41,964 nucleotides of DNA from positions 1-41,964 of the IMG/VR virus record IMGVR_UViG_3300006916_000100. One strand, 5' to 3'. The notes under the pieces were generated by a model, which was given only the letters and a program-made list of their open reading frames with translations, had not been told where the DNA came from and ran no database searches. The translations under genes and the position numbers were made by a program. This document shows, piece by piece, positions 15,483 to 34,341 of this stretch. Position 1 is the stretch's first letter. Each line of letters starts with the position of its first letter. This stretch comes from a virus.

Positions 15483-16927
15483 TCTCGCAACTCCTCGCCC
15501 AAAACCGTACTTGCAATGTTTTGCTTGTTTTGCAACGCGGTCAATATCTTTTCATCGATTGTCCGCGGCGACACCAGATCAATGTAAGTGACATTGTTTT
15601 TCTGCCCAATGCGGTGCGCCCGGTCTTCAGACTGCACACGAATCTCCAGATCGTAGTTGTTTGAGTAATAAATGACTGTGCTAGCCTCTGTCAGCGTGAT
15701 CCCCATACCGCCGGTGCGACTGTTGCCCACAAAGAAGCGCATAGGAGAGTCGGGGTTTTGAAACTCTTCCACGATGCGCTGACGCTCATCTTGAGCGGTA
15801 GCGCCGTAGAACGCACCAAAGCTGTCAGGCCCGTATTCTTTCGACAAAACTTCACAGATCTTTTCAATGTCGTGAACATATGTGGCCCATATGATGGCTT
15901 TGCCGTCTATTTCTTCACAGACGTTCAACAACTCCTGCACACGGTTCGACGAAAGTTCACGTGTGCGCTCATCATCGTCACGCACGAAGCCGCAACAGAT
16001 TTGCTGCAGGCGCATGATCTGCGTCAGAACGTTGTTGGTAGACACCAGCGAGCCATCCTGTAGCTGCGCCAAGGCCAGCTTGCTCATCTGACGGTACAGG
16101 TTTTTCTGTTCGCTGGTCAGTTCCACTTCCCGGCGGATGTAAACCTTTTCTGGCAGATCAAGGCATTCTTTCTTCAGTACCCGCGAGCTAAAGTCGTCAA
16201 GCTTCAAATTAAGCTCGTCCAGACGCTGGAAGCCCACGATCTGTTGGAAAGACCGGTGGCCCATAGAACGCCGCTGTACGACGGCGTAGCGGCCTTGAAA
16301 GGCATAATAGTTAGGGTAGCCTAAGTAGTTGTCGCCCAGAAACAGGCACTGCGAGAACAAATCCATCGGCGACTTTGTCACCGGCGAGCCAGTCAGCAGA
16401 CGCTTGTAAGTGAAAAACTTACCCGCCGCGACGATAGCTTTGGTTCGATTGGCCTTACGGTTTTTGATGGCTGTCGATTCGTCCACCACCATCATGCCCT
16501 TCTCACCAAACTTCTTAGCAAACCACGCCGCTGTCTCCGCACCCTTGGGCGTAGAGAACGCCTCAACGTTCATTACAAATATCTTCAGCTTGTCTGAATT
16601 GATGAACGCTTGAAATTCATCCCGGTACTTTTGCGTGATGTTCGGTTGCCATGCACATACAGAATGCTCAATCCTATCAGGCAGATGCGTCGGTATTTCT
16701 TTTCGCACCCAATTATGGAAAACACCTTTCGGAGCGACGATCAGCACTGTGTTGATCTCGCCAACCTCTTGCAATAATGCAATCGTATCGACTACGATTT
16801 TGGACTTGCCTGTACCCATCTCCATAAATAAAGCATAACATTCCCTGTGCCACGAATCACGGAACACGGACCTTTGGTGGTCGTAAGGCTCTGTTTTAAA
16901 TACGTATTTGTCAAATTTACGGCGCAT
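15470..16927 (-). CDS. SNF2-family DEAD-like helicase
   Basis: This 485-aa protein has the SF2/SNF2 motif series in order: Q-like YDHQRSVF (15-22), motif I EMGTGKS (36-42), motif Ia VLIVAPKGVFHNW, motif II DEST in place of DEAH (149-152), motif III LLTGSPVTKSP, motif IV-like AIIWATY, and motif VI QSEDRAHRIGQ. It is an ATP-driven dsDNA translocase. Phage copies are usually placed with replication or recombination genes, as here. It is the lone large minus-strand gene between two plus-strand blocks and faces gene 17016 across a divergent promoter region. AAGGAG precedes the ATG. No nuclease domain is fused. Its exact task in the phage cannot be read from sequence. Confidence 0.92.
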   Translation of the reverse strand: MRRKFDKYVFKTEPYDHQRSVFRDSWHRECYALFMEMGTGKSKIVVDTIALLQEVGEINTVLIVAPKGVFHNWVRKEIPTHLPDRIEHSVCAWQPNITQKYRDEFQAFINSDKLKIFVMNVEAFSTPKGAETAAWFAKKFGEKGMMVVDESTAIKNRKANRTKAIVAAGKFFTYKRLLTGSPVTKSPMDLFSQCLFLGDNYLGYPNYYAFQGRYAVVQRRSMGHRSFQQIVGFQRLDELNLKLDDFSSRVLKKECLDLPEKVYIRREVELTSEQKNLYRQMSKLALAQLQDGSLVSTNNVLTQIMRLQQICCGFVRDDDERTRELSSNRVQELLNVCEEIDGKAIIWATYVHDIEKICEVLSKEYGPDSFGAFYGATAQDERQRIVEEFQNPDSPMRFFVGNSRTGGMGITLTEASTVIYYSNNYDLEIRVQSEDRAHRIGQKNNVTYIDLVSPRTIDEKILTALQNKQNIASTVLGEELREWFQ

Positions 16928-21840: not shown

Positions 21841-22028
21841 AGAAGCACATCGTATATTGCAGCCTTCAAAAGAAGGGTGCCCTGAATCTCGCTGTCCTGA
21901 CAAAGGACAGCGGGAAAGGGGATGACTACAACGTGTACGCCATATCGCCAGAACAGGCGCAAGAATTGGCAAGGCATCTTTTAAATCTTCTCGCTGAAGA
22001 AAGGCGTTTGCCGGATGAAGAGGAATGA
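21837..22028 (+). CDS. Small hypothetical protein
   Basis: This 63-aa protein starts in an ATGA overlap with the AT-hook gene and overlaps the polymerase gene by 14 bp. A beta-type N-terminus (MKKHIVYCSLQKKGALNLAV) is followed by a C-terminal helix (ISPEQAQELARHLLNLLAEE) and an acidic end. No domain is recognised. Tight coupling on both sides and good coding character support it as a real gene of the replication operon, perhaps a polymerase or helicase accessory. That is position-based inference only. Confidence 0.6.
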   Translation: MKKHIVYCSLQKKGALNLAVLTKDSGKGDDYNVYAISPEQAQELARHLLNLLAEERRLPDEEE

Positions 22029-23919
22029 TGGACTGCAACTGGTGATGTTTAATCAAAAGACAGATTGGACACCGCCGTCAGAGTTGCCCGACATTACCGA
22101 TAGAAAAGAAATTGCTATCGACTTGGAAACTCGTGACCCGAACCTGAAGACGTTGGGCCCCGGTTGGCCCCGCAATGACGGGGAAGTTATAGGTTACGCT
22201 GTCGCCTGTGACGGGTGGAGCGGTTACTTACCAATCGCCCACCTTGGCGGCGGCAACCTCGACAAGCGCATCGTCAACAACTGGATGAAGAAGGTGCTTG
22301 CCTGCCCCGCCGACAAAGTAATGCATAACGCACAGTATGATCTTGGATGGCTCAAAGCGAGCGGCTTTGAAGTGAACGGCCATATCAGCGACACGATGGT
22401 CGTCGCTGCGCTGCTAGATGAAAATAGATTTAGTTATAGCCTTAACTCTGTTTGTTACGACCACCTGAACAAGACCAAGTCCGAAAAGGGTCTGGTGCAA
22501 GCGGCAAAGGATTTTGGCTTGGACCCCAAGTCCGAAATGTGGAAGATGCCCGCCATGTTTGTGGGAGAGTATGCTACCGCCGACGCGGAGCTTACGTTGG
22601 AACTTTGGACATATTTTAAAGTTGAGATAGGCAAGCAGGGGCTCACCACCGTCCATGCGCTGGAGCGAGACTTGCTGCCATGTCTTGTGGATATGACTCT
22701 GCGCGGTATCCGGGTGGACACTGACGCAATGGAACGCGCCAGCCAGTTTATGCTGCAGCAAGAGAAAGCCGCCGTGAAACAGATAAAGTCTCTGGTCGGC
22801 TTCGATGTAGAAATATGGGCAGCGCAGTCAATAGCCAAAGCCTTCGACAAGCTCGACATCAGCTACCCCAAGACTGAAAAGAATGCGCCATCCTTTACCA
22901 AAGCTTTCCTGACCACGCACACGCACGATCTGCCCAAAGCAATCCTGCAGGCGCGTGAGTTTAACAAAAGCAAGAACACCTTCATGGATGGGCTTTTAAA
23001 GCACGTCGGCAAGGATGGGCGTGTCCACGGCCACATCAACCAAATCAGGTCAGATGACGGCGGTACAGTGTCCGGGCGCATATCCATGTCAAACCCCAAC
23101 TTGCAGCAAATTCCTGCACGGCACCCGGACCTTGGCCCGTTGATACGATCCGTGTTCAAACCAGAAGAAGGCCAGAAGTGGGCTTCTATAGACTATTCGC
23201 AACAGGAACCACGGATCTTGGTTCACTTTGCAGCGGCTTTTCAGGAAGCCACCGGCAAAGAAATGCCGCGGGTGGATGAGTTTGTGGACGGCTACACTAA
23301 CAACCCCGACATGGATTTCCATGACATGGTGGCTGGTATCGCCGATATCCCGCGCAAACAGGCAAAGACGATCAACCTTGGCATGATGTACGGCATGGGC
23401 GTAGGAAAGCTTGCCGATCAGCTTGACCTGTCGAAGGAGGAAGCAAAGGAACTAATGACGCAGTATGATAGCCGCGTCCCCTTTGTGAAGCGTCTGATGC
23501 GGGCGGTGCAGGAGCGTGTGCAGAACGGAAACAAAGAAGGCTCTATCCGCTCCCTGCTGGGGCGTAAGTGCCGGTTTCCTGACTTTGAGCCGCAGAGCTT
23601 CGGCATGCACAAGGCAATGCCCTACGAGGAAGCCAAAGCTTATTACGGGCCCAATGTCAGCCTGCAGCGGGCATATGCATACAAAGCCCTTAACAGGCTC
23701 ATACAGGCGTCCGCCGCCGACATGACGAAGAAGGCAATGGTAGACATCTACAAAGCTGGTGTGCTGCCCCTGCTGCAGGTACATGACGAGCTAGCCTTCA
23801 GTGTCGCCGACGAGGCAGAAGCAAAAACACTTGCAGGAATCATGTGTGATGCAATAGATTTAAAAGTGCCGATGCAGACCGATATCGAAATGGGCTCCAG
23901 TTGGGGCGATTCGATGTAG
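22015..23919 (+). CDS. Family A DNA polymerase (PolA type) with 3'-5' exonuclease
   Basis: This 634-aa protein lacks the 5' nuclease domain. Exonuclease: DLETRDP (D36, E38), NAQYDLGWL (D109) and YATADAELT (D190), so proofreading residues are intact. Polymerase: motif A ASIDYSQQEPR (D393, E398), motif B RKQAKTINLGMMYG (R447, K451, Y459) and motif C LLQVHDELAF (H590, D591, E592). Position 455, equivalent to E. coli Phe762, is leucine. The start is taken at 22015; an internal ATG at 22045 (MFNQKTDW) is a possible alternative and would not touch any motif. It ends the replication operon, followed by a strong terminator. It synthesises phage DNA from primers of the AEP-type primase. Confidence 0.95.
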   Translation: MKRNDGLQLVMFNQKTDWTPPSELPDITDRKEIAIDLETRDPNLKTLGPGWPRNDGEVIGYAVACDGWSGYLPIAHLGGGNLDKRIVNNWMKKVLACPADKVMHNAQYDLGWLKASGFEVNGHISDTMVVAALLDENRFSYSLNSVCYDHLNKTKSEKGLVQAAKDFGLDPKSEMWKMPAMFVGEYATADAELTLELWTYFKVEIGKQGLTTVHALERDLLPCLVDMTLRGIRVDTDAMERASQFMLQQEKAAVKQIKSLVGFDVEIWAAQSIAKAFDKLDISYPKTEKNAPSFTKAFLTTHTHDLPKAILQAREFNKSKNTFMDGLLKHVGKDGRVHGHINQIRSDDGGTVSGRISMSNPNLQQIPARHPDLGPLIRSVFKPEEGQKWASIDYSQQEPRILVHFAAAFQEATGKEMPRVDEFVDGYTNNPDMDFHDMVAGIADIPRKQAKTINLGMMYGMGVGKLADQLDLSKEEAKELMTQYDSRVPFVKRLMRAVQERVQNGNKEGSIRSLLGRKCRFPDFEPQSFGMHKAMPYEEAKAYYGPNVSLQRAYAYKALNRLIQASAADMTKKAMVDIYKAGVLPLLQVHDELAFSVADEAEAKTLAGIMCDAIDLKVPMQTDIEMGSSWGDSM

Positions 23920-24905: not shown

Positions 24906-25784
24906 CTAGATTTCCATCAGCTTGTCGTCAAGGTACACTTCCATGTCGGCCTTCTTGCTCCGCTTCTTGTGCTTGAAATTGTACCAAGACCGCGTGAGCA
25001 TCACACTATAGTCATGTGACGTGATCCGCCGTTCACGGTTCATCTTCATACGCGTCAATGTTTCGACAAGATGCCGGGACGGCTGATACTTGCTTGTCCC
25101 CGAACCGCCGACGCGAAGCTCCGCAAAAAACTTATCTACAAGCTCTTCGTCGCCGTTCAAGCTGGCAAGATAGTACAGCGAAGCTGTCTGACCAATCGGG
25201 TAGCTGATTACGTTGTAAACGTTCTTAGCTGACTTGATCGCCCGCTGCATAAGCTCTTCGTCAATGTCATTAAGGTACATGTCCTTAATGATCTGGTTCG
25301 ATACAGTGCCCTGCGTGTTCGTTACACCGCGCTTCCAAGCCCGTATCATCTTCAATGCACCAGCTACCTTACCGGAGTTTGGTACACCCATGATTGCGAG
25401 AATATCGTCCCCGCCACGATTTTTTCCTGTGTCCATGTGATGGAACGTTGCAGGATCAATGCCAAAAATGACATGTGTCTTAAATGATGTCTGAGCCCGG
25501 ATGCAAGCAGCTAACCGGTTCTGACCATCTAAAAGACGCCCGTTGTCGCCGAAGCAGATTGTCTCGCCGGTCAATGACCAGTTGTGCGAAGCCATGTCTT
25601 TAGCGTAATCTACAATACGCTGCGGCTTCTGAGGACGATTGCCGATATTAAGCTTAGACAAAATGTACTCTGCTAACGATGGTGTGAACTCCATCACCAC
25701 GCTGTTCGTCGGGGACTTGCGGAGAAACTTCTCCAAGTTCTTGATTTCTGTCTCTTTTTCAGACTGTGTTTTGATGATCTGCAT
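24906..25784 (-). CDS. ParB/Srx-fold phage protein
   Basis: The start is taken at 25784 (MQIIKTQSEKETEIKN) behind AAAGAGAG; a longer frame to 25838 would run through the promoter. The 292-aa protein has a ParB N-terminal-like domain: RPQKPQRIVDYAKDMASHNW, then ICFGDNGRLLDGQNRLAACI, then FKTHVIFGIDPATFHHMDTG. The GQNRLAAC segment sits where ParB has its GERRxRAA CTP-binding box, so this is the wider ParB/sulfiredoxin fold, not a canonical ParB CTPase. The rest is helical with a basic C-terminal region (KHKKRSKKADMEV). It is expressed from a promoter containing a TATGGGA operator. DNA binding or nucleotide hydrolysis is possible; the function is not known to me. Confidence 0.7.
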   Translation of the reverse strand: MQIIKTQSEKETEIKNLEKFLRKSPTNSVVMEFTPSLAEYILSKLNIGNRPQKPQRIVDYAKDMASHNWSLTGETICFGDNGRLLDGQNRLAACIRAQTSFKTHVIFGIDPATFHHMDTGKNRGGDDILAIMGVPNSGKVAGALKMIRAWKRGVTNTQGTVSNQIIKDMYLNDIDEELMQRAIKSAKNVYNVISYPIGQTASLYYLASLNGDEELVDKFFAELRVGGSGTSKYQPSRHLVETLTRMKMNRERRITSHDYSVMLTRSWYNFKHKKRSKKADMEVYLDDKLMEI

Positions 25785-25819
25785 TTTTCTCTCTTTTGTT
25801 TGTCGTTGTTGACCTTTTA

Positions 25820-25848
25820 AAGATAGGAGCCATCCCATACGCCGTCAA
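25820..25848 (-). promoter_or_regulatory. Promoter of the ParB-fold gene with TATGGGA operator
   Basis: On the minus strand, TTGACG (25848-25843) is followed after 17 bp by TATCTT (25825-25820). The spacer and -10 contain TATGGGA-TGGC-TCCTATC (25839-25822), an 18-bp inverted repeat with 5/7 arm match to the perfect copy at 27437-27454. A repressor bound here would block the polymerase directly. Confidence 0.6.
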
Positions 25849-25857
25849 CCTTTTTCC

Positions 25858-25887
25858 TTGACGATTCTAAGAATAATCCCATATAAC
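25858..25887 (+). promoter_or_regulatory. Promoter of gene 25914 with TATGGGA operator
   Basis: TTGACG (25858-25863), an 18-bp spacer and TATAAC (25882-25887). Read on the minus strand, 25883-25866 is TATGGGATTATTCTTAGA, which matches the operator at 30100-30117 (TATGGGATTAGTCCTAGA) in 16 of 18 positions. It is back to back with the ParB-fold gene promoter, so one regulator could control both. Confidence 0.6.
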
Positions 25888-25913
25888 GGTTTGGAACAGT
25901 GGAGACTGCCAAC

Positions 25914-26183
25914 ATGTTTGATGAAGCAGAAGAAGTAGAACTGGATCCCAACGGCGGGGACTTCAGCCTTGGTCACGAAATGGGTATCGATGCCCTCGAC
26001 TTAATAAGCAAGCACGTCGATGCACAGGCCGCGGAACACGAACCAATCGTCATTCTGGGCGTGATGACCGCACTGATGCAGTACGCAATGCAAGCCTGCC
26101 GCGATGAAAACGATGTCGATGAACTGATAGGCATGGCAAAAGAAATCGCACAAAACACCTTAGACCACGGAACACGGCATTAA
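25914..26183 (+). CDS. Small acidic hypothetical protein
   Basis: The ATG at 25914 is chosen because GGAG lies 9 bp upstream; the GTG at 25899 in the same frame would place the ribosome site inside the gene. The 89-aa product is acidic and helical: MFDEAEEVELDPNGGDFSLG, then IDALDLISKHVDAQAAEHEP, then VIVTALMQYAMQACRD-like residues and DELIGMAKEIAQNTLDHG. No domain is recognised. It is a single-gene unit between a strong promoter and a bidirectional terminator, flanked by minus-strand genes. A small protein-binding inhibitor would fit its charge and regulation, but that is speculation. Confidence 0.65.
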   Translation: MFDEAEEVELDPNGGDFSLGHEMGIDALDLISKHVDAQAAEHEPIVILGVMTALMQYAMQACRDENDVDELIGMAKEIAQNTLDHGTRH

Positions 26184-26220
26184 AAAAGGGCGGTCATTGA
26201 CCGCCCTTCCTTTATTTTTT
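26182..26220. terminator. Bidirectional Rho-independent terminator
   Basis: A perfect 8-bp stem, GGGCGGTC (26188-26195) and GACCGCCC (26199-26206), with a 3-nt loop, is flanked by AAAAAA on the left and a T-rich run (TTCCTTTATTTTTT) on the right. It serves the converging genes at 25914 (plus) and 26212 (minus). Confidence 0.88.
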
Positions 26221-26487
26221 ATTCACCTTTACTGCCACAAGGCCCCCGTGAAACTCCTCACGGTCCTCAAACCATTCAAGTATCTTTGCAATCCGCGTAC
26301 TACGTTTTGATTTGTAGTTGCGGCCAAAGCGCATGATGGGGCTATCGACGTCGTCCTCATAGAAGACCACGCCGCCGTAGAGCCCCGGTTCATTGCCAAG
26401 CTCAAATCTTCTGCCGGTTATCCGGCAGATGAAATCTGCGCCGTTGTGATCGTACTGCGAAAGATGAATTTCAAGATCAAGCGCCAT
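26212..26487 (-). CDS. Small hypothetical protein
   Basis: A 91-aa protein on the minus strand: MALDLEIHLSQYDHNGADFI, CRITGRRFELGNEPGLYGGV, then VFYEDDVDSPIMRFGRNYKS and a C-terminal FHGGLVAVKVNKK. It looks like a compact alpha/beta protein without transmembrane or metal motifs. Its ATG overlaps the TGA of the upstream gene (TGATG), so the two are coupled. It ends at the bidirectional terminator. I do not recognise the family, and the operon gives no functional hint beyond early or accessory expression. Confidence 0.65.
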   Translation of the reverse strand: MALDLEIHLSQYDHNGADFICRITGRRFELGNEPGLYGGVVFYEDDVDSPIMRFGRNYKSKRSTRIAKILEWFEDREEFHGGLVAVKVNKK

Positions 26488-26786
26488 CAGCCTATCTTCC
26501 CCAATGTCTTTTGAAGATGGTCTAACTCCGCTTGTTCTTTTATCTTCTGCATAGCAGAGTCGGCTACAGCCTTCTTTCGTTTGGCACGAAGCTCGTTGTA
26601 ATGTTCAAGCGTACCACACTCGACATCCGCCGCGTTGATGGCACCGCCGTGAAGCTGCTTTGCAACCTGCCGCCGGTATTTCATCAAAAGCTTGCGGTGG
26701 GCATCTATCCCCTTCTCGTCTGTGAAGTAGACAGTGTTTAAAGCTTCCCACATTACGTTCAACTCAGTGTCGTTTAATTCAGCCAT
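26487..26786 (-). CDS. Small helical hypothetical protein
   Basis: This 99-aa minus-strand protein is mostly helical and basic: MAELNDTELNVMWEALNTVY, KGIDAHRKLLMKYRRQVAKQ, and a coiled-coil-like C-terminus (DSAMQKIKEQAELDHLQKTL). AAAGGAGAAAG precedes the ATG. A very stable GC hairpin (26818-26840) stands in its leader. It is coupled to the gene at 26212. No known domain is visible; the heptad-like end suggests oligomerisation or partner binding. Confidence 0.65.
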   Translation of the reverse strand: MAELNDTELNVMWEALNTVYFTDEKGIDAHRKLLMKYRRQVAKQLHGGAINAADVECGTLEHYNELRAKRKKAVADSAMQKIKEQAELDHLQKTLGKIG

Positions 26787-26817
26787 TTACTTTCTCCTTT
26801 GGTGGCTGGGAGGTCTA

Positions 26818-26840
26818 CCCCCCTACCGTAGGTAGGGGGG
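26818..26840 (-). promoter_or_regulatory. Strong GC hairpin in the leader of gene 26487-26786
   Basis: A perfect 10-bp stem, CCCCCCTACC (26818-26827) and GGTAGGGGGG (26831-26840), with a GTA loop. It has no T run on either side, so it is not a standard terminator. It lies 9 bp after the stop of the upstream minus-strand gene and about 30 bp before the next ATG. RNA stabilisation, processing or attenuation is possible. Confidence 0.6.
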
Positions 26841-26848
26841 CGTAGGTC

Positions 26849-27157
26849 TTATCTCCGCGGCTGCGGGGGCGTCGGCACGTGCCTCGTTTCAAGGCACTCC
26901 AACGCTACCCCTTCGTCGTCGGGGATATCATCCTTGGTTCCGAACACACCCTGATGGGTGGCGTGGAACCCGTCGTAATCTTCGACATCGAAGATGTTGA
27001 CCGGCACCTCTTCTTTAAAGGTGTACAAGCTGCTCCAGTCACGAACAAGAATGCTCGCTGCACTGGTGGCGGCTTCGTCAGCCGATGAGCCGTAGGCCCA
27101 AGAGCTTCCGCACCCAATAAAGATGATGGCAAGGAAAGACGGTTTGGCGTCAGACAT
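26849..27157 (-). CDS. Small conserved hypothetical protein
   Basis: A 102-aa protein: MSDAKPSFLAIIFIGCGSSW, AYGSSADEAATSAASILVRD, WSSLYTFKEEVPVNIFDVED, then an acidic and Pro-rich end. The N-terminal F-L-A-I-I-F-I-G-C-G could be mistaken for a lipoprotein signal, but the following A-Y-G-x-S-x-x-E-A-x-x-x-A-A helix fits a beta-alpha cytoplasmic fold better. I recall similar small proteins in phages but no function. CGGAGGTCAG gives a strong ribosome site. Its leader contains the parS palindrome and a TATGGGA operator. Confidence 0.65.
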   Translation of the reverse strand: MSDAKPSFLAIIFIGCGSSWAYGSSADEAATSAASILVRDWSSLYTFKEEVPVNIFDVEDYDGFHATHQGVFGTKDDIPDDEGVALECLETRHVPTPPQPRR

Positions 27158-27198
27158 ACTGACCTCCGTTGGTTGTTTGGTTTACGATTTCAAATAGC

Positions 27199-27220
27199 GA
27201 ATGTTTCACGTGAAACATTC
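27199..27220. promoter_or_regulatory. parS-type centromere site (ParB-binding palindrome)
   Basis: TGTTTCACGTGAAACA at 27202-27217 is the canonical 16-bp bacterial chromosomal parS sequence. The palindrome is perfect for 22 bp in all (27199-27220). It lies in the non-coding gap between divergent genes. In bacteria ParB loads here and spreads as a CTP-dependent clamp, with ParA moving the complex. No ParA and no canonical ParB is encoded in the window, so host ParB is the likely ligand. An 8-bp palindrome CGGGCCCG directly follows. Confidence 0.85.
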
Positions 27221-27254
27221 CGGGCCCGAAAGCCCATAGCCCTATTTCGAGCTA

Positions 27255-27292
27255 ACATTCTATCTTAAAGGATAACTCCCATACAGTCCATG
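27255..27292 (-). promoter_or_regulatory. TATGGGA operator and promoter for gene 26849-27157
   Basis: On the minus strand, 27283-27266 reads TATGGGA-GTTA-TCCTTTA, a third copy of the operator (5/7 second arm). TGGACT just upstream and TAAGAT 17 bp on form a weak promoter around it, the same layout as at 25820 and 27429. The resulting leader RNA would carry the parS palindrome as a hairpin. Confidence 0.5.
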
Positions 27293-27299
27293 TGACATA

Positions 27300-27428
27300 G
27301 TGTCGCACCTTTTTTATTAATGAAATCAATTAGTTAAACTGAAATGTGGTTAACTTGAAATGATTCTAATGTGCAGTCAACCAGAATATGGTTAACAAGC
27401 AAATACAAAAACATCTGCATTTTTTTGC
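27300..27428. repeat. AT-rich region with direct repeats
   Basis: GTTAAACTGAAATG (27333-27346) and GTTAACTTGAAATG (27349-27362) are 14-bp direct repeats, 16 bp apart, with 12/14 identity. A third GTTAAC occurs near 27392, and TGAAAT also occurs at 27321. The segment is strongly AT-rich and non-coding. Iteron-like repeats next to AT-rich DNA and a parS site would fit a replication origin, but nothing proves it. Confidence 0.45.
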
Positions 27429-27456
27429 TTGACTTGTATGGGACGGTTCCCATAAT
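27429..27456 (+). promoter_or_regulatory. Promoter with perfect TATGGGA operator
   Basis: TTGACT (27429-27434), 16 bp and CATAAT (27451-27456). The spacer contains the only perfect copy of the operator: TATGGGA-CGGT-TCCCATA (27437-27454). It drives the AT-hook gene at 27485 and the two genes coupled to it. Confidence 0.7.
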
Positions 27457-27484
27457 AACCGGGTCAACAACAGGAGAGACACCA

Positions 27485-28573: not shown

Positions 28574-29149
28574 ATGGAAATCGTAAAAGTAAACCCTGTT
28601 GGTCGTCCGCGGCTGACACCGGACTCCCCGCTCTCTGAAAAGCAAAAGAAATTCGTTAAGGAATACGTTTCCAACGACGGCATGATTAGTAAGAAGCAAT
28701 GCGCTTTAAACGCGGGCTTCTCTGAAAAGAGTGCGTCGGTCAAAGCTTCTGAACTTTTGAACCCCCACAAGCACCCGAATGTTGCCAAGGCGATCAAGAT
28801 GTATCGGGACGAACTGAACGAGCGGTATGCAATCACTTACCATCGTCATGTCCGTGACCTGCAGCGCATACGTGATGAAGCTTTGGACAATGGAGCATAT
28901 TCAGCCGCCGTGCAGGCGGAGTACCGCCGGGGGCAGGCGCACGGGGATATCTACATCAGCAAATCTGAAGTGCGGCACGGTTCTATTGACAGCATGAGCC
29001 GTGATGAAGTGATGAAAGAACTAGAAGAGATTAAAAAGCAATATGGATCTTCCGTTATCGATATCACGCCCGTCGAAAAAGACGCCGAAGAATCTGGAAG
29101 CGAGCTTCTACCAGAGTATAAAGAAGAACCAGAAGAAGCACCGGCCTGA
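28574..29149 (+). CDS. Terminase small subunit
   Basis: This 191-aa protein has the small-terminase HTH domain: PLSEKQKKFVKEYVSNDGMI, SKKQCALNAGFSEKSASVKA and LLNPHKHPNVAKAIKMYRDE. The middle is a coiled-coil type oligomerisation segment and the C-terminus is acidic (EEPEEAPA), expected to contact the large subunit. An N-terminal VGRPRL resembles half an AT-hook. It recognises phage DNA at the start of packaging. The last 107 bp also encode the N-terminus of the nuclease gene in another frame. It is separated from the large subunit by about 3.7 kb, instead of being adjacent. Confidence 0.85.
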   Translation: MEIVKVNPVGRPRLTPDSPLSEKQKKFVKEYVSNDGMISKKQCALNAGFSEKSASVKASELLNPHKHPNVAKAIKMYRDELNERYAITYHRHVRDLQRIRDEALDNGAYSAAVQAEYRRGQAHGDIYISKSEVRHGSIDSMSRDEVMKELEEIKKQYGSSVIDITPVEKDAEESGSELLPEYKEEPEEAPA

Positions 29150-32883: not shown

Positions 32884-34341
32884 ATGAGCGATGAAATCCA
32901 AGATAAAGTAGTCAAGTTACAGCTTCGACTAGCTCAATTAAATCGTGTTGAACACTGTCAGACGGACTTCTTGGGATTTGTGAAAGCGGTCTGGCCGGAC
33001 TTCATTGCTGGCGAGCATCATCGTATAATTGCAGAGAAGTTTGAGCGCGTAGCCAAGGGCGAATTGAAGCGTTTGATCATCAACATGGCCCCGCGTCACA
33101 CAAAGTCTGAGTTTGCCAGTTATCTTCTGCCTGCGTGGTTTATTGGGCAGAACCCGGCGATGAAAATCATTCAGGCAACGCACACCACGGAGCTTGCTGT
33201 ATCCTTTGGCCGTAAGGTGAAGAACCTTCTAGAGCGAGAAGATTATGCTGAGATTTTTCCTGAAGCGAAATTATCGGCGGATTCCAAGGCGTCAGGCCGG
33301 TGGGACACTTCACGTGGCGGCATGTACTATGCTGTCGGCGTTGGCAGTAATCTTGCTGGCCGCGGCGGCGATCTAATTATTATTGACGACCCCCATTCTG
33401 AGCAGACGGCTATGTCGGCGTCGGGTTTTGACAATGACTGGGATTGGTACACAGGGGGCCCCCGACAGCGTTTGCAGCCCGGCGGGGCGATCATTTTGGT
33501 AATGACTCGTTGGTCACAAAAGGATTTGACCGGTCAGCTTATTCGTCAAATGGGTAAAGATGAGAAAGCGGATCAGTGGGAAGTTGTGGAACTTCCTGCG
33601 ATTATGGACGATGAGGAACCTTGTTGGCCGGAGTTTTGGTCAAAAGACGATCTTGAAAGGGTCAAGGCGTCTATCCCGCCGTCAAAGTGGAACGCGCAGT
33701 ATCAACAGCGTCCTACAGGTGAAGAGAACGCAATTATCCCGCGAGAGTGGTGGAAGCGGTGGGAAAAAGACAACGTCCCTAATCTTGAGTATGTCATTCA
33801 AAGTTATGACACGGCGTTTTCAAAGCGCGAGACTGCTGACTACAGCGCTATAACGACGTGGGGTGTATTTCGCCCGGAAGAAATTGGGGGGCCCCCGGCG
33901 GTCATTTTGTTAGATAGCAAGAAGGGCCGGTGGGATTTTCCAGAGTTGAAAGCAGAAGCTTATGAAAGCTATCAGTTCTGGGAACCCGATACTGTAATCG
34001 TGGAAGCAAAGGCGTCAGGGACTCCTTTGACACACGAATTACGTAACATGGGCATTCCTGTTGTGAATTTTACGCCATCTCGCGGCAACGATAAGGTGTC
34101 GCGTGTCCATTCTGTATCTCCTTTGTTTGAGGCGGGGATGGTGTATGCGCCGGATGAGACATTTGCGGACGAGCTTATTGAGGAAGTTGCGGCTTTTCCC
34201 AATGGTGAGTATGATGACCTTGTCGATAGTATGACCCAAGCTCTGATGCGATACCGTCAGGGCAATTTCGTATCGTTACCTACGGACGATTGGGACATAG
34301 ACGAGGACAACTATACTCAGGTACGCTCGTATTATGGCTGA
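32884..34341 (+). CDS. Terminase large subunit
   Basis: This 485-aa protein has a packaging ATPase domain with variant Walker A APRHTKSE (69-76), Walker B LIIIDDP (164-170) and a coupling-type motif near VMTRWSQKD. The nuclease domain shows SYDTAFSKRETADYSA (D309), VIVEAKASGTPL and a late GEYDDLVDSMTQAL, which supply the acidic residues of the RNase H-like fold. Its length is normal. It pumps DNA into the procapsid and cuts it. The 3' end overlaps the next gene by 8 bp. The small subunit gene is 3.7 kb upstream, separated by cargo genes. Confidence 0.95.
   Translation: MSDEIQDKVVKLQLRLAQLNRVEHCQTDFLGFVKAVWPDFIAGEHHRIIAEKFERVAKGELKRLIINMAPRHTKSEFASYLLPAWFIGQNPAMKIIQATHTTELAVSFGRKVKNLLEREDYAEIFPEAKLSADSKASGRWDTSRGGMYYAVGVGSNLAGRGGDLIIIDDPHSEQTAMSASGFDNDWDWYTGGPRQRLQPGGAIILVMTRWSQKDLTGQLIRQMGKDEKADQWEVVELPAIMDDEEPCWPEFWSKDDLERVKASIPPSKWNAQYQQRPTGEENAIIPREWWKRWEKDNVPNLEYVIQSYDTAFSKRETADYSAITTWGVFRPEEIGGPPAVILLDSKKGRWDFPELKAEAYESYQFWEPDTVIVEAKASGTPLTHELRNMGIPVVNFTPSRGNDKVSRVHSVSPLFEAGMVYAPDETFADELIEEVAAFPNGEYDDLVDSMTQALMRYRQGNFVSLPTDDWDIDEDNYTQVRSYYG

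Follow-up and report, generated by a model that had tools for sequence, protein, structure and literature searches.

Why would a phage with no visible partition genes carry an exact copy of the bacterial chromosomal centromere, and whose ParB would use it? The question is raised by one site in the DNA analyzed here, a 41,964-bp IMG/VR record of a marine phage that we refer to as the window. An earlier note had taken this site for a parS of the chromosomal type, open to use by the ParB of the host, in a phage with no visible ParAB of its own. Our analyses support that reading, in the absence of binding data.

The site and its surroundings

The 16-bp palindrome TGTTNCACGTGNAACA served as the criterion for a chromosomal-type parS, and the window satisfies it by an exact match. 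The consensus 16-mer described previously is present and, as had been stated, non-coding: no listed ORF lies over it, and the gap that holds it (Table 1) is bordered by a mostly minus-strand block (24906-27157) on one side and a plus-strand block on the other. The symmetry had also been said to continue to 22 bp. It is perfect over that length in the window, but symmetry beyond 20 bp is not general among the 61 distinct sites of the clade, and flank statistics identified the inner AATGTTTCACGTGAAACATT as the sole part of the 22-bp palindrome that recurs in other sites. No second parS was detected in the window even when up to 3 mismatches were allowed; shuffled sequence gave a mean of 0.16 matches at that threshold. 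The adjacent 102-aa ORF is 96% conserved in close relatives.

Table 1 Coordinates of the parS site and of neighboring features and landmarks in the window
Feature	Position	Strand	Remark
Chromosomal-type parS TGTTTCACGTGAAACA	27202..27217		Exact match; kept in relatives
Perfect 22-bp palindrome GAATGTTTCACGTGAAACATTC enclosing parS	27199..27220		Sequence
Non-coding gap with parS, between divergent gene blocks	27158..27484		
102-aa ORF, function unknown	26849..27157	-	parS 45 bp upstream of its start codon
Sigma70-like promoter TTGACT-16-CATAAT	27429..27456	+	Kept in L122 and L125
310-aa protein, phrog_5931, weak ParB/sulfiredoxin-fold resemblance	24906..25838	-	Not co-distributed with parS
Terminase small subunit (terS)	28574..29149	+	Landmark downstream of parS
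Terminase large subunit (terL)	32884..34341	+	Landmark; sister-lineage parS 25-155 bp upstream of terL
DNA polymerase A	22015..23919	+	Used for finding relatives

The promoter in the gap is likely the start of the plus-strand block. Its spacer contains an imperfect palindrome, TATGGGACGGTTCCCATA (27436-27453), and an extra half site occurs at ~27275; together they look like the operator of an unidentified regulator. We also considered the site as a marker of the replication origin and rejected this, as cumulative GC skew climbs broadly across the region in five genomes with no clear switch at parS.

Conservation, relocation and loss among relatives

We collected relatives without reference to parS. 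One set comprised 20 non-redundant contigs, each extending at least 6.5 kb upstream of terL and reaching 75% or more in terL identity; 14 of these carry the site, 13 of them exactly. A second set of 40 contigs (551 kb in total) required at least 1.5 kb upstream and had no identity cut. The two commonest palindromic 16-mers in this set are TGTTTCACGTGAAACA (14 contigs) and TGTTCCACGTGGAACA (6 contigs), both canonical parS forms, and the two-sided T/C-A/G change between them preserves parS identity. Composition-matched random palindromes had no match in the same 40 relatives. The outcome that would have counted against the earlier reading, absence of the motif from all related phages, was therefore not met: many keep the site. 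Flanking bases were compared as well. Across the 61 distinct clade sites, A occupies position -1 in 75% and position -2 in 62%, with nothing strong further out, and in a sample of bacterial chromosomes parS is flanked by A at -1 in 52% and at -2 in 54%. The flank bias of the phage sites matches that of chromosomal parS.

The enrichment extends beyond the clade. Within IMG/VR, a control palindrome of the same composition, ACAAAGTGCACTTTGT, matches 1 contig, versus at least 120 stretches for parS; 36 of the stretches listed (approximately one-third) fall in the present phage group, as assigned with a 20% homology cut. No nucleotide-level relatives of the window were detected among deposited phages. 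We searched deposited phages with a 20-bp parS query, accepting matches down to the 16-bp core, and retrieved 356 records, versus 0 for the control palindrome; a query with the asymmetric form retrieved 231. We note that these are counts of records, not of independent lineages, and that many of the records named 'Listeria phage LM' are unannotated fragments that may contain host DNA. The chance expectation had been put at ~1e-5 per window, and a simple calculation agrees with that figure, although we counted the comparison of parS with the control palindrome in IMG/VR as stronger evidence than any single-window expectation. The occurrence of parS in the window is not chance.

The position of the site is less constant than its sequence. 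In the window's subclade, parS lies ~1.3 kb before terS, and a second copy occurs in the same gap 147 bp away in one relative (L122) and 173 bp away in another (L236). Another large clade has parS 25-155 bp before terL, where some sites are paired, with TGTTCCACGTGGAACA and TGTTTCACGTGAAACA 23-24 bp apart. The motif is conserved at this locus in close relatives; other lineages place it elsewhere. On a terL tree of 38 rows, scored as near terL, elsewhere or none, the site requires 8 changes versus 17.4 in shuffles, so that the sites were inherited over long times and sometimes relocated or absent. Some sister lineages have no site within 2 mismatches over 56-61 kb, and it is missing from the L284-L288 lineage and from L313; parS is therefore not essential to the group. 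A chance site, or a recent and functionless capture of host DNA, could account for this patchiness among sister lineages, but would have to be reconciled with a more than 100-fold enrichment over controls in IMG/VR, with the 356-to-0 result in deposited phages, and with long-term conservation combined with independent placements, and we consider it scarcely credible.

These placements also bear on whether ParB, spreading outward from parS, could form a roadblock or silencer that insulates the terminase genes or the divergent control region. The location in an intergenic control region here, and 25-155 bp before terL in many relatives, favors such a role, and raised ParB levels are reported to strengthen the repression of promoters adjacent to parS3/parS4 in Pseudomonas aeruginosa (PMC5521831). 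The neighbor varies, however, being terL in one clade and an ORFan upstream of terS in another, whereas a promoter-specific operator would be expected to stay with its own gene. We regard a roadblock as improbable. Constant sequence combined with a changing neighbor indicates that the site is not the simple operator of one gene.

Partition genes, phage affiliation and host

Terminase, polymerase, primase and portal genes place the window with the HTVC023P-type podoviruses (HTVC027P, HTVC023P and 023Pt_psg01) and phage DSL-LC04, which share these genes with it and are the nearest deposited members of its group. Unlike the window, HTVC023P, 023Pt_psg01 and DSL-LC04 have no parS within 2 mismatches. 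HTVC027P (L204), a cultured SAR11 phage, contains a one-mismatch parS, CGTTTCACGTGAAACA, at 16412 inside an unannotated VRR-NUC-like ORF, and four contigs related to it (L014, L023, L088 and L103) have exact sites. In a further relative (G002, alignment A3), four members match the SU10 adaptor family within one phage genome, which suggests duplicated adaptor-like genes.

We searched for partition and integration genes that could explain the site from within the phage. ParB_N was not detected in the window or in 14 related IMG/VR records, and HTH_ParB, ParA-type AAA_31 and phage integrase were not detected in the window, 13 related IMG/VR records or HTVC027P. Five of the related records searched are 54-65 kb, and one has a 127-bp terminal repeat and is therefore probably complete. 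The linked parA and parB expected of a self-encoded ParABS were thus not found, PF02195, PF17762 and PF13614 being absent from the window and the related records. Among 50 parS-bearing IMG/VR contigs, many of them short, only 2 have a ParB_N match; two other observations in IMG/VR are contigs L017 and L044, each with five exact parS in ~1 kb and neither with a ParB_N match. The absence of ParA and canonical ParB noted for the window holds and extends to near-complete relatives, and the concern that the rest of the genome might encode its own ParB was not borne out, since these relatives lack any ParB/ParA family match.

An integrated prophage was rejected because no integrase was found in the window or the relatives searched. 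Pfam scans of the predicted proteins of two relatives (largest ORFs excluded; first 25 families listed) revealed no plasmid replication or partition genes. A plasmid-like state is the least supported of the uses suggested earlier, because no plasmid or lysogeny genes were found. With neither integrase nor par genes, the window fits the description of a virulent phage that has parS and lacks ParAB, although it is uncultured. HTVC027P, a member of the wider group, is described as obligately lytic (PMC12753301).

One neighboring protein required closer attention. The 310-aa protein encoded 1.4 kb from the site has no Pfam or NCBIfam match, and a sequence search with its family against solved structures gave no meaningful match. 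Its predicted structure is of fair confidence (pLDDT 80, pTM 0.58), and the best Foldseek matches of this model are to ParB-N, ParB-CDP and sulfiredoxin, with E-values from 0.04 to 0.5 and low TM-scores. On the strength of the model, it may be a divergent, perhaps new, family of the ParB/Srx fold. The family has an invariant DGQNRL motif. The protein is missing from eight parS-bearing relatives (G005, G008, G009, G013, L132, L167, L170 and L186) and present in L237, which lacks parS; given this mismatch, it is not a general partner of parS. A phage-encoded ParB as a trivial explanation of the site was rejected on the negative family searches and on the failure of this protein to track parS.

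The same evidence is relevant to whether the site is an operator for a phage-encoded regulator, its likeness to parS having arisen by convergence. Candidate regulators are available, namely the ParB/Srx-like protein in the window's subclade and, as a weak match, the RHH-like protein encoded by these phages, and the region includes a promoter with an imperfect palindrome. Yet each of the 16 positions agrees with the chromosomal consensus, the variant corresponds to the second parS form of chromosomes, and the flank bias is chromosomal; moreover, neither candidate follows the site, as the distribution of the 310-aa protein shows and as the RHH gene is likewise present where parS is missing (L284, L287). 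We find an operator of this kind very unlikely.

The host could not be assigned. The MAGs in which related phage contigs occur are labeled inconsistently, with taxa from unrelated phyla, so we make no host call for the window phage. A SAR11 phage is unlikely, an inference from GC content (49% in the window versus 35% in SAR11 phages). Of 142 genomes sampled from the class to which a Rhodobacteraceae MAG belongs, 100 contained the exact 16-mer and none the reversed control. The same sequence is therefore found on chromosomes of a candidate host class, although the actual host is not known.

Host ParB and possible uses of the site

ParB dimers recognize parS, close as CTP-dependent clamps, slide off, and recruit ParA and SMC (PMC12704722). 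We propose that, after entry, host ParB would recognize the phage parS, close on the phage DNA as a CTP-dependent clamp and slide across the neighboring kilobases, and that the phage genome would thereby gain a partition complex able to engage host ParA and SMC. Recruitment of host ParB by the site is inferred, with high confidence but without binding data. It is also probable that we are dealing with a true parS of the chromosomal type, one that loads this protein onto phage DNA, because the site has an exact core, a chromosomal flank bias, conservation in the clade and shifting intergenic positions, and the phage has no ParA or canonical ParB.

What the phage gains is less certain. Tethering, a plasmid-like state, silencing and titration had all been suggested; none is established, and sequence data do not separate positioning, titration and roadblock. 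Our tentative choice, which could well be wrong, is that the phage genome is positioned or retained alongside the nucleoid of the host while the lytic cycle runs slowly or is deferred. The site could instead be a decoy, replicating phage genomes with one or two parS each titrating host ParB from origin-proximal sites and disturbing chromosome segregation and division. Lytic replication would raise the number of sites far above the host's own, and a parS on a mobile element destabilizes the resident ParABS replicon in the SGI1/IncC system (PMC10954446). Clade genomes have one or two sites, and the large arrays that would suit a pure sponge are absent; CTP loading nevertheless lets a single site take many clamps. 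We consider a decoy unlikely but not negligible. A gain other than positioning, titration or roadblock is also rather improbable.

We compared the site with known systems. It shares the 16-bp sequence and the flank preference of bacterial chromosomal ParABS-parS and differs in having no linked parA/parB. Phage-plasmids (P1 and extrachromosomal mycobacteriophages) also have parS on a phage genome; they have their own ParABS, whereas for the window phage we found neither par genes nor an integrase or an initiator of plasmid replication. SGI1 stole parS from IncC plasmids and exploits IncC ParABS (PMC10954446). Like the phage in our reading, it is mobile DNA whose parS uses the ParABS of another replicon, which stabilizes the element and works against its helper; in that case, however, the ParABS belongs to a plasmid and the element is an integrative one of Enterobacteria, where here the partners would be a lytic phage and the ParB of a chromosome. 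Lambda given a parS has served, together with CFP-ParB, as a reporter, and those infections ended in lysis (PMC13190303).

The closest parallel is phi29, which is virulent and has a chromosomal-type parS, as does the window phage. Its entrapment in spores is ascribed to host Spo0J/ParB, which is reported to act on its genome (Meijer et al. 2005 as cited in PMC9437464). In the phi29 record (L371, NC_011048), the parS variant TGTTTCACGTGGAACA occurs without mismatch at four positions (10445, 15903, 17243 and 18760), in keeping with the part that Spo0J is reported to play in spore entrapment. The differences are a spore-forming host, packaging into spores with Spo0A control, and four copies where genomes of the present clade have one or two. 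The candidate marine hosts are not known to sporulate. Capture of a foreign ParB thus has precedents; the novelty here lies in a large group of marine lytic phages that has conserved the tactic outside the known spore formers. We found no report of a natural parS in lytic phages of non-sporulating hosts, although only open-licence literature was searched and absence is unproven.

The capture of host ParB through a chromosomal parS may be a general, repeatedly evolved tactic of lytic phages without ParAB, one that tracks the presence of host ParB; we incline slightly towards this view. It would cover marine podoviruses, phages of Pseudomonas, Arthrobacter, Stenotrophomonas, Vibrio and Bacillus, and small single-stranded DNA phages. 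Enterobacterales are not known to have chromosomal ParABS. No phage of an enterobacterial host was present among 120 rows sampled (two evenly spread lists of 60, from two queries), as expected if host ParB is needed. Plasmids matched in 25 of 72,556 records, far fewer than phages, under a stricter E-value limit. In phage DSS3P8 of Ruegeria pomeroyi DSS-3, an exact site lies between gp001 and gp002.

If this generalization is true, phages commonly target the centromere machinery of bacteria that do not form spores, and lytic infection involves either active positioning of the phage genome or active disturbance of the host centromere. It would also give grounds, from sequence, for examining ParB, ParA and SMC both in phage take-over and in defence against phages. 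A direct test is possible in existing laboratory pairs, namely Ruegeria pomeroyi DSS-3 with DSS3P8 and Bacillus subtilis with phi29-family phages.

Two further placements were observed. Vibrio phage phi 3 (L373; 821 and 2934) and Pseudomonas phage phiPsa267 (L374; 373) have parS forms in their terminal repeats, as if the site in these unrelated large lytic phages were on the DNA that enters first or is present twice. The bajarodino viruses (H61-H68), of ~6 kb and some with a Zot-like gene, match at 10-12 places each, which corresponds to about five or six parS copies because a palindrome is counted on both strands.
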